A stretch of DNA of 35,711 bases from Myxococcota bacterium (lineage in GTDB: Bacteria; Myxococcota_A; Polyangia; JAAYKL01), in contig JALOQD010000020.1 of the NCBI GenBank assembly GCA_025453525.1, forward strand, positions 1-35,711, given 5' to 3'. Made by a program: the position numbers and the translations under genes. The notes beneath the pieces were generated by a model. It did no database searches and was not told the origin of the DNA. It saw only the letters and a program-made list of their open reading frames with translations. The first letter of the stretch is position 1, and every line of letters starts with the position of its first letter. Below are positions 30,621 through 34,505 of this stretch, piece by piece.

Positions 30621-30778
30621 AAAAGAGACCTATCACAACTGCTGGTCGCTTGTCCCAATGGTTGTACAATATGGCAGAGACATTGAATCCGGTCTCTTGC
30701 CTGTGGTAACTTCCCCTGAAAGTTCCCATGGGCGAAAAGGCCTCGAGGTCGACCCGACGCATGAAGAAGGAGAGACGA

Positions 30779-31396
30779 ATGAAGAAGCTCGCGCTCCTAT
30801 CCGCTGTCGCAATTGCCATGCTGCTGCTTGGCTGCACCCAAGACGACAAGGACTCTCGCAAGGTGGTGGCGGAAAAAGTAGACACCTACAAGGCGAACCT
30901 GCCGCCGGTTCCGTCCATCCCCAAGCCCACCGCACCCGAGGCCTACCCGGACGGCTCGCACTCGGTGTACGGCGTGCGCAAGCAGATCCTCAAGACCATC
31001 GAAACCCAGGTCACGGTCACGGCCTACATCGCCAACGTGTACAAAAAACCCGAGTGCGAAGAAGGCAAGGCCTGTTTCACCCTCATGCCGCATCTCTTCC
31101 TCGCTGATGAAAAGGCCGAGAACATCGAGAAGCGGCTATTGCGGGTCGTGGGTTACGCCAAGAGCTTCAAGGAAATGGACGACCAGAAAGAAAAAGACGA
31201 GAAGGGCATCAAAGACGAGTTGCCCGAGGGTGTGTACCTGCCTCCGGTGATCTGGGATTGGCGCGAAGGTCAGAAGTACAAAATCACCGGTCGGTTCACC
31301 CGCCAGTCAGGCGATGGATTCATGGCCACCGACGGTCTGCTGGAGTACGAGAAGCACGAGTGCCTCGACTGCCCGCCCGAAGAAGCAAAGAAATGA
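30779..31396 (+). CDS. Lipoprotein of unknown function
   Basis: The 205-residue product has a clear lipoprotein signal with lipobox LLGC (Cys19). The mature part starts charged, passes through a Pro-rich stretch (LPPVPSIPKPTAPEAYP) and then has a strand-rich region (IETQVTVTAYIANVYKKPEC, KACFTLMPHLFLAD, RLLRVVGYAKSF). This looks like an OB-type fold, a guess from pattern only. Two Cys pairs (CEEGKAC and CLDC) could bind metal or form disulphides. It ends in a Lys/Glu-rich tail. AAGGAG lies 7 nt before ATG 30779. It stands alone on the plus strand, divergent from aspartate kinase, and is followed at once by a hairpin and a long palindrome. Confidence 0.82.
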   Translation: MKKLALLSAVAIAMLLLGCTQDDKDSRKVVAEKVDTYKANLPPVPSIPKPTAPEAYPDGSHSVYGVRKQILKTIETQVTVTAYIANVYKKPECEEGKACFTLMPHLFLADEKAENIEKRLLRVVGYAKSFKEMDDQKEKDEKGIKDELPEGVYLPPVIWDWREGQKYKITGRFTRQSGDGFMATDGLLEYEKHECLDCPPEEAKK

Positions 31397-31399
31397 CAG

Positions 31400-31415
31400 G
31401 GCTCGCTGACGAGCC
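31400..31415 (+). terminator. Hairpin after the lipoprotein stop codon
   Basis: A perfect 6-bp stem GGCTCG/CGAGCC with a CTGA tetraloop starts 4 nt after the TGA stop. The nearest T run (31438-31442) is 22 nt later, so it is not a classical intrinsic terminator by itself. It may protect the transcript end together with the adjacent palindrome. Confidence 0.45.
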
Positions 31416-31419
31416 GTCC

Positions 31420-31605
31420 TAGCCTGGAGTTTCGTCATTTTTCCTACTGCGTCGAAAGCTGAACGACCGGCGCTGCGTCATCCGCGCTATTTTTCACTCA
31501 CCCTACCGCCAGTAGGCCTCCGCGAAAAATATCGCGGCTTCCTTGCGGCGGGCGGCTCGCCCAGCTTCCGTCCTCCCTACGAAAAAATGTCGAAACTCCA
31601 GCCTA
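31420..31605. repeat. 186-nt imperfect palindrome (long hairpin element) between convergent genes
   Basis: The left arm (31420-31495) and the complement of the right arm (31524-31605) align along their whole length. The outer 23 nt differ only at two positions (TAGCCTGGAGTTTCG against TAGGCTGGAGTTTCG, then CATTTTT). The middle shares GAAGCTG and CCG blocks. The inner stem CCGCG-C-TATTTTTC pairs with GAAAAATA-T-CGCGG with one mismatch, and the tip is CCTAC-CGCCA-GTAGG. By eye roughly three quarters of aligned positions match. It could be a small non-autonomous inverted-repeat element, a REP-like unit, a two-way terminator or a structured RNA. Confidence 0.85.
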
Positions 31606-31644
31606 GCGCTTCGATTTTTCGATACATCGGCGAAAAGAGAACTT

Positions 31645-34080
31645 CTAGTAGGAGTACTCGGCGCCCACCATGGCGACGAGGTTCGTCGAGTCGGAATGGA
31701 AATGCTCCGGACGTTTGATGAACAGCAGGTTGTACCCTGAGACAAAAAGGTCGAGGCCTTTGACGAGAGTGTAGGCGACCTTGGCGTTGAGAATCGCCTT
31801 GGGCCGCACCTCGTATTCGCTCGTCTCGTAGGTGGCAGTGTAGAGCATGCCCAGAACCTGATCGGTCCGCGCCAAGGTGTGGCCAGTGTAGGCGTACACA
31901 TTGGCATTGATATTCAGCTTCTGGATTGGACGGATATCGAAGGTCAACCCGCCGTAGACGCTCGGTGTTCCGCGGTGTCGGAGTTTGCTCTGATTGGCCG
32001 GATCCTGGGGGTCGTATTCGAAGTCGAACAAGTGCAACGTGTCTGGCGCATGGTGGGCAAGCAGAGTTTCCTGAACGGTCGCGAACAACTTGAGCCGGCT
32101 CTTGGGCAAGGTCAAAAACGCGCTCAACGTGAGGCCGATCTGATGGGCCACGGTATCGAGAGTCTCTGCCTGAGTGTAGATGCGCAACTGGCCGTCCACG
32201 AGCTCACGGGCGTGGGGATAGAAACCCGAGAAGCCGCGCGTATTTGAATAGAAGAGCTCGGTGTCGACCTCTAGCCCTTCGAGGAGCTGACCCCGGTGGC
32301 CGAGTTCCACGGCATCGCTGGTCACGACGTCCAGGGCGCGATTGCCCAGCCCAATGACCGGGGGTGAATAGTCGTCGTAGAAATAGGTGTTGATGAGAAA
32401 GGGCGCGCGGTGGGCCCGGCTGTAGGACAGGCGCAACAGTTGGAGGGGCGAGATTTGCGCCGTGGCGCCGATCTGCCAGGATGGGATCGCGCTCTTGCCT
32501 TCCACCGATACCGCGGTCGCGGCCGTGGTGTAGTCGAGGTTCTCTTCGGTGCGCGGATAGAAACGGTCCTCAACGCGATCGAAATAGTAGTCCACCCGCA
32601 CCCCAGCCACGACGCGGACCTTGTCGAACAGCTTGAGATCGCCTCGCAGGGAGCCTGAGAGGGCCTGCAGCGCTTTGTCTGGATCGGAGATGTCGAGATT
32701 GCCTGGAAGCAATTGATCGTCCTCAAAGGAGTGAGAGGCGATCAGCGCTCCAGAGTACTCGGCGCGCCTGAAGCCCACCCCTGGGGTGATGCGCAGCTTT
32801 TCGTCGAGCAGCCCAATATCGTAGGTGAGCTCGCTGTCGAGCACGTTGAATCTGTAGGCCCGGACATTGCCTTCGGCGAGCGCCTTCAGATTGCCGAGCA
32901 TCGCCTGGTCGCCGAGGTAGTAGGACACGTGGGCCGTGGCGCCGTACAACTTGGCCATGACGTCCGCGTAGCCCGTGACAGAGTCGTTCGTCGTCAGAGG
33001 CGTGGCCCAGGTATCGGCGTAGATCTTCTGGACGCGGGACGTCTCGAATCCACCGCTGATGTCGAGGCTCCCGTGCTCCCCGAGCCGAGCGTTCAAGAAG
33101 GCATTGACGGCCAGGCGATCTGTGGCCAGATCGAGGCGTGGGTAACGCTGCACCGGGTTCTCGAGGGGTGCCCCACTCATGCCGCGGGGCATGTCCGCTG
33201 GATCCTCGTAAACAACCCGATCGCGAAACGAGAAATAGCCACTGTCATGCCGATCCGCGTGATGGTAATCGCCCGAGACGATGAGGCTCAGCGGCCCGAA
33301 ATCGTAACCCGCGGCCGCACCCACGAGGCGCTCGTCCCACAAGGGTCCGTACTCCACGCGGTTGCTCGTGTAGAAACCCTTCTTCTTGGGCCGAGCCGTG
33401 ATGATGTTGATGACACCGGTCACCGCGTTGGGGCCGTAGAGAGCGGCGGCCGGACCTCGGATGATCTCGATGCGCTCCACGTCATGGAGACCCACCGGAA
33501 TCGTCTCCCAGAAGGTGCCGCCCTGAAAGTAGTTGTAGACCACCCGATAGTCGACCATGACGAGCAACGTGGAGCTCGCCATATCGTGCAATTGAGTATT
33601 GGGGGGCACGTTGTCGAGACCTCGAACATGGATGTCGTAGTTTCCCACGGTCTGCTCGCGCACGATGAGGCCTGGGGCGAGGCGCAGGGCCTCCATGATC
33701 GTGCGCGCGCCGCTGCGCCGAATCTCGTCCCGAGTGATCACGGACACGGCCAAAGGAGCGTCGAAGGTGCGCTCGGCCTTCTTCGAGACCGACTCCACCT
33801 TCACGCTGAGCAGCTCTGAAAGCGACATGTCGATGAACTCTTGTTCCTGACCAGCTCCGACAGCGCTTTGAACCATCGGCCCACCCACCACGAGCTCATT
33901 TCCGGCCGCGCTTGTCCCAGGCTCGCCCGGCATGGGCAGCTCTTCGACAATCAGGCCTTGGGTGTCGGCGGGTGTGTCCCCGGTCTCGGTCGACGCGGGA
34001 TCCTCGGCCAAGGCGAGCCAGCTGTGCATCAGCAAGGTGCTCATCGCGACGACAAAGCCCACTGTTCTCGTTGTTTTCAT
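31645..34080 (-). CDS. TonB-dependent outer-membrane receptor
   Basis: The 811-residue product has a signal peptide ending LALAED (about residue 26) and a plug domain from about residue 80 to 220. The plug is marked by DMSLSELLSVKVESVSKKAERT, a TonB-box-like and plug entry, then VSVITRDEIRRSGARTIMEALR and RIEIIRGPAAALYGPNAVTGVINIIT. A 22-stranded-type barrel follows, with many aromatic strands and a C-terminal Tyr (VGAEYSY). Such receptors import iron complexes, vitamin B12, sugars or peptides using TonB energy; the ligand cannot be told. No SusD partner is present. Instead, a Cys-rich lipoprotein gene precedes it by 17 nt. A purine stretch (GGAAGAG) lies before ATG 34080; an upstream in-frame ATG at 34161 would hide the signal peptide. 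Confidence 0.92.
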   Translation of the reverse strand: MKTTRTVGFVVAMSTLLMHSWLALAEDPASTETGDTPADTQGLIVEELPMPGEPGTSAAGNELVVGGPMVQSAVGAGQEQEFIDMSLSELLSVKVESVSKKAERTFDAPLAVSVITRDEIRRSGARTIMEALRLAPGLIVREQTVGNYDIHVRGLDNVPPNTQLHDMASSTLLVMVDYRVVYNYFQGGTFWETIPVGLHDVERIEIIRGPAAALYGPNAVTGVINIITARPKKKGFYTSNRVEYGPLWDERLVGAAAGYDFGPLSLIVSGDYHHADRHDSGYFSFRDRVVYEDPADMPRGMSGAPLENPVQRYPRLDLATDRLAVNAFLNARLGEHGSLDISGGFETSRVQKIYADTWATPLTTNDSVTGYADVMAKLYGATAHVSYYLGDQAMLGNLKALAEGNVRAYRFNVLDSELTYDIGLLDEKLRITPGVGFRRAEYSGALIASHSFEDDQLLPGNLDISDPDKALQALSGSLRGDLKLFDKVRVVAGVRVDYYFDRVEDRFYPRTEENLDYTTAATAVSVEGKSAIPSWQIGATAQISPLQLLRLSYSRAHRAPFLINTYFYDDYSPPVIGLGNRALDVVTSDAVELGHRGQLLEGLEVDTELFYSNTRGFSGFYPHARELVDGQLRIYTQAETLDTVAHQIGLTLSAFLTLPKSRLKLFATVQETLLAHHAPDTLHLFDFEYDPQDPANQSKLRHRGTPSVYGGLTFDIRPIQKLNINANVYAYTGHTLARTDQVLGMLYTATYETSEYEVRPKAILNAKVAYTLVKGLDLFVSGYNLLFIKRPEHFHSDSTNLVAMVGAEYSY

Positions 34081-34097
34081 GCGCTCTTCCGCTTCCT

Positions 34098-34505
34098 TCA
34101 ATCCATCTTGAAGCACACCCAAGAGAGGACCCCTGCGCTCAAGGATGTGGCGTCGATGCACGGGATATTGGGCGGACAGGTCGAGGGGTCACTGGGCTCG
34201 CAGTCGACCACCAGGCAATGGAACTTGATAAACGGCGGCCCTTGGTCTGGGCACATGGTGCTGGGCATGCAATCGCACTCCTCGTCCTTTTTGCATTCGC
34301 TCAAGAAACAAGACCAGTCCGTGTTCGTGTCCGTGTCCGGTGCTGTGGAGACTTGGGTGCTCGACCCTGAGCCCGTATCGGTCTCCGGGCTGTCCGTTTC
34401 CTGGGGGGTGAGGTTCGTGTCCTCGACGCAGCGGTCCAGATCCTTTCGATCGTCAATACAGCCGAGCAAACCCAAAAATACGAAGGCTAAAGACCACAGT
34501 CGCAT
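34098..34505 (-). CDS. Cys-rich lipoprotein upstream of the TonB receptor
   Basis: The product has 135 residues. The signal ends in lipobox LLGC (Cys16). A linker of Thr, Asp, Ser and Pro follows (about 28-63, with TDTGSGSS and PDTDTNTD), of the kind common in Myxococcota lipoproteins. The C-terminal 70 residues hold ten Cys, including CKKDEECDCMPSTMC and CPPNIPC, which suggests a disulphide-knotted or metal-binding surface domain. I know no family for it. GGGAG lies upstream of ATG 34505. The receptor start is 17 nt after the stop, so the two are probably one operon and may act together at the cell surface. Confidence 0.82.
   Translation of the reverse strand: MRLWSLAFVFLGLLGCIDDRKDLDRCVEDTNLTPQETDSPETDTGSGSSTQVSTAPDTDTNTDWSCFLSECKKDEECDCMPSTMCPDQGPPFIKFHCLVVDCEPSDPSTCPPNIPCIDATSLSAGVLSWVCFKMD

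Follow-up and report, generated by a model that had tools for sequence, protein, structure and literature searches.

Several kinds of short, mostly intergenic elements have been described in bacteria. The RUP element of Streptococcus pneumoniae is 107 bp long, occurs in 108 copies, inserts at TA and has been proposed to be moved by the insertion sequence IS630-Spn1 (PMC2229807). The Correia/NEMIS elements of Neisseria and the Yersinia palindromic sequence YAPL/RU-2 measure 100-170 bp, lie between genes and fold into a hairpin over most of their length (PMC2229807).

Here we describe a palindrome from the window, by which we mean the whole stretch of 35,711 nucleotides that was analysed. It is very probably a 178-bp non-autonomous miniature inverted-repeat element (MITE) that depends on an IS701-like transposase, its predicted partner, for mobilisation. 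Like RUP, the palindrome is short, encodes no protein and is found mostly between genes, and its ends and target match those of an insertion sequence, the presumed source of a transposase acting in trans. By analogy, the logic of trans-mobilisation would be the same as for RUP and IS630-Spn1 (PMC2229807). The two differ in the partner family, the target and the copy number: IS630, TA and 108 copies for RUP against IS701-like ends, YTAR and two copies seen for the palindrome. With Correia/NEMIS and YAPL/RU-2 it shares length, hairpin and intergenic location, whereas sequence, ends and host are different, the copies are far fewer, and the palindrome is known from sequence alone. Full-length relatives carry a transposase of the NF049999 type and share the YTAG-type target that is usual for the IS701 family. 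The palindrome, in contrast, has no transposase, and its duplication is apparently 6 bp long against the 4 bp usual for that family.

The literature searched held no description of a MITE with an IS701-like element as partner, and a search for IS701 with YTAG or CTAG returned nothing. As a kind of element it is fairly ordinary, and it was seen here in two genomes, both from a single bacterial family. For annotation purposes, such palindromes should not be taken for terminators or RNA genes.

Extent and setting of the palindrome

The first-pass annotation had placed a near-complete palindrome at 31420-31605, filling the space between two convergent genes. Both the palindrome and its location are borne out by the analysis. 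The RNA fold of 31400-31620 reaches -91.7 kcal/mol, compared to a mean of -63.8 for shuffled sequences (z -5.96, with none of 200 shuffles equal), and the DNA fold of 31424-31601 yields a z of -5.60, both far from chance expectation. Across the window, the palindrome is the top-ranking inverted repeat within 300 nt. Aligned against its own reverse complement, the region shows 70% identity across 188 nt (E 4.5e-8). Convergent reading frames end at 31396 on the plus strand and at 31645 on the minus strand, and the gap of 248 nt between them is mostly palindrome. The sole overlapping open reading frame of at least 80 amino acids (31503-31907, minus strand) runs out of frame across the end of the receptor gene. 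The receptor gene adjoining the palindrome has a counterpart on another contig (G000:C403:3768-6119), which encodes a TonB-dependent receptor of 58% identity.

The edges, however, had been set too wide. The outer CTAG on each side belongs to a perfect 6-bp direct repeat, CCTAGC, which abuts both palindrome edges in the same orientation. The corrected span is therefore 31424-31601, or 178 nt, reading CTGGAGTTTCG...CGAAACTCCAG. Since CTAG is self-complementary, it had been taken for arm sequence; the inverted-repeat search, with CTAG counted in, likewise reports terminal inverted repeats with 24-nt arms and a 92% match. Two differences between the arms had been named as compensated, C opposite T and TAGC against TAGG, and neither is a compensation. 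The second is simply the direct repeat viewed as an inverted one, which points to a target-site duplication. All features are collected in Table 1.

Table 1. Features of the palindromic element and its surroundings (positions in the window)
Feature	Position	Strand	Basis or remark
Upstream flanking gene, 222-aa protein	30728..31396	+	lipobox-like LLLGC; without Pfam or NCBIfam match
Small GC hairpin GGCTCG-CTGA-CGAGCC	31400..31415	+	outside the element, directly 3' of the stop codon of the upstream gene
Target-site duplication CCTAGC, left copy	31418..31423		perfect repeat outside the palindrome; contains CTAG, fits the YTAR target of related insertion sequences
Palindromic miniature element, 178 nt	31424..31601		fold z -5.6 to -6; genome copy 99%; other-genus relative 77%
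Left terminal inverted repeat CTGGAGTTTCGTCATTTTT	31424..31442	+	inverted-repeat search; 17/19 positions equal to insertion-sequence ends CTAGAGTTTCGTCATTTTC
Right terminal inverted repeat, inward reading CTGGAGTTTCGACATTTTT	31583..31601	-	inverted-repeat search and pattern search
Target-site duplication CCTAGC, right copy	31602..31607		direct repeat
Convergent flanking gene, TonB-dependent receptor	31645..34161	-	PF07715 and PF00593 above cut-off

The location between convergent genes, together with a hairpin that is strong on both strands, might be argued to reflect a two-way transcription terminator belonging to the gene pair. Yet nothing in 31424-31601 resembles a terminator (a GC-rich stem with a T run directly behind it), and direct repeats flank the palindrome. 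The sole terminator-like match concerns the separate hairpin at 31400-31415; it is a weak one, on the minus strand.

Copies in the genome and in relatives

The first-pass annotation saw no second copy, which is true within the window, but the genome does hold one. The 5.9 Mb contain two copies: the window copy (contig G000:C109) and a stretch of 128 nt on G000:C454 with a single difference (99% identity), which stops at the contig end. The free edge of this second copy lies at the identical terminal CTCCAG, with unrelated sequence beyond, and one base 3' of the stop codon of a prolyl-tRNA synthetase-like gene (named from its sequence). Here TTGA stands where YTAR is expected, and a single edge is available for a target duplication. 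The two copies are 99% alike even though their arms mismatch at approximately 30%, which argues for recent spread inside the genome.

Among 95 other genomes we found one relative, in another genus of the family (G001:C201). It measures 174 nt, is 77% identical and has both ends at equal bases. It lies 3 nt upstream of the likely ATG of a lipoprotein-like gene, where neither a target duplication nor a YTAR site is recognisable. When the DNA search was extended to the class (318 genomes) and the terminus search to the phylum (379 genomes), and when a covariance model was run on the 14 genomes of the family, no copy beyond these three came to light. Plasmid and viral collections held no copy. Short matches in G054, G070 and G295 were rejected, as they span 25-32 nt only and the one in G054 lies in apparent coding sequence. 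An empty site could not be demonstrated in a relative: beside the receptor homologues in G009 and on G000:C403, the stretch examined contains nothing homologous to the upstream gene.

Copies thus occur at three unrelated places (G000:C109, G000:C454 and G001:C201). This speaks for an element that moves, and against a local terminator. One copy follows an unrelated gene, and the G001 relative precedes a start codon, which is hard to reconcile with a terminator serving the convergent pair; we consider that explanation very unlikely, although the palindrome may stop transcription as a side effect. Of the options listed in the first-pass annotation, it is the miniature inverted-repeat element that gains support, through the dispersed copies, the target duplication at the window copy and the ends in common with an insertion sequence.

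Pairing between the arms

A covariation test compared the copies of the window and of G001, using the window fold as reference and an alignment based on sequence only. The 65 pairs contain 24 substitutions. In six pairs both sides have changed and still pair, against 0.93 expected. Another four changed on one side with pairing kept, and six are broken against 15.6 expected. None of 20000 random placements was as good. When the G001 fold served as reference, the outcome was weaker and in the same direction (5 against 1.1 expected, P 0.0016).

Based on these two diverged sequences, the test supports the view that the complementarity of the arms has been maintained, whether selection is responsible or one arm serves as template in the repair of the other. 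Templated repair of quasi-palindromes yields the same pattern without any selection, so two sequences cannot separate the two causes. For long MITE hairpins the question becomes testable once more copies are known. A need for the folded strand, in movement or as an RNA in host transcripts, could have placed the full-length hairpin under selection across genera, with the compensating changes along both arms as a result; this seems doubtful to us. The first-pass view of an old element kept as a hairpin therefore holds in part: the arms do co-vary between genera, but the 99% identity of the copies in the genome indicates recent spread.

A related explanation would keep the mobile element but have its hairpin recruited as a structured RNA or an RNase III site in neighbouring transcripts. 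Such a use has been proposed for the NEMIS hairpin of Neisseria (PMC2229807). The doubly changed pairs that still pair, and the shortage of broken ones, speak for recruitment. Templated repair would leave the same pattern in these two sequences, however, and the three genomic contexts differ. We regard recruitment as unlikely. An Rfam covariance-model search of the element, with E up to 1 allowed, returned nothing. Taken together with the lack of a terminator-like site and the three different gene contexts, this makes a conserved role at the window locus unlikely.

Ends in common with IS701-like insertion sequences

The reading as a MITE moved by an IS701-like transposase draws on the ends of the palindrome, which are nearly the same as the ends (CTAGAGTTTCGYCATTTT) of insertion sequences in its own genome and in two related genera (G002 and G006); these insertion sequences insert at YTAR. 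Apart from the palindromes, a search with the terminus pattern GRAGTTTCGWCATTTTT returned four repeats at contig ends of the own genome with CTAGAGTTTCGTCATTT ends (also given as YTAGAGTTTCGTCATTT), one of them as TTAGAG, and eleven ends in the two other genera (CTAGAGTTTCGCCATTTTT). NYTARN precedes 14 of the 15 insertion-sequence ends, where chance would give it at approximately 1 in 64 each. In IS701 elements of the class that are more distant, the ends resemble these without being the same (type CAGACTCGTGTTTCGCC).

On three contigs these ends are linked with transposase sequence of the IS701 type. On G006:C71 the end lies approximately 200 nt upstream of a 474-aa IS701-family transposase (NF049999, E 1.5e-89, 300.7 bits against a cut-off of 170). 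In the own genome, the transposase leader is found beside the end on G000:C358, as one 39-nt stretch (score 27 against a best of 15 in 500 shuffles). G000:C356 encodes a stretch of 21 residues resembling the transposase C-terminus, aligned through the last residue and ending approximately 18 nt before the end (score 45 against a best of 37 in 300 shuffles). The genome itself thus appears to contain IS701-like insertion sequences of which these are the ends. A whole gene of the IS701_3 type was not found there, and none of the insertion-sequence copies recovered was complete, with the ends and flanks of both sides. Repeats run into contig ends in short-read assemblies, and the missing gene is probably explained by multi-copy elements that broke the assembly.

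The ends, the duplication, the second copy, the relative in another genus, the ends in common with insertion sequences and the connection to IS701-type transposase sequence are all supported directly. From these we infer that the palindrome is moved in trans. An IS701-like transposase encoded elsewhere in the genome would recognise the CTGGAGTTTCG(A/T)CATTTTT ends and excise or copy the palindrome. Insertion would then take place at YTAR sites (CTAG here) with duplication of approximately 6 bp, here CCTAGC. In the window, the palindrome would have come to rest between two convergent genes, a position in which little harm is done. Regarding the length of the duplication, CTAG is central in the 6-bp direct repeat at the window copy, which is one copy only. 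Among the insertion-sequence copies the base adjoining YTAR varies, which favours a duplication of 5 or 6 bp.

The palindrome also resembles REPIN-like elements, moved by a Y1 (RAYT) transposase, in its similar size, GGAG near the end and intergenic places. A target duplication, YTAR sites and DDE-type IS701 ends are unexpected for RAYT, and an origin of this kind appears very unlikely.

Returning to the IS701-like insertion sequences, the transposase gene on G006:C71 (1-6000) is also flanked by an inner 32-nt inverted repeat (AAAGGGGGCGGGGGGATTTCGTC...), with the CTAGAGTTTCG end lying further out. A nested copy, or one with two layers of ends, could account for this. Two contigs of the own genome, G000:C253 and G000:C399, were considered as further IS701-like copies and rejected, as their ends do not align with the G006 transposase. 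Their bases 1-261 form a common 261-nt end with the terminus YTAGAGTTTCGTCATTTTC and an interior unlike the IS701-like element; perhaps they represent a second element bearing the same ends.
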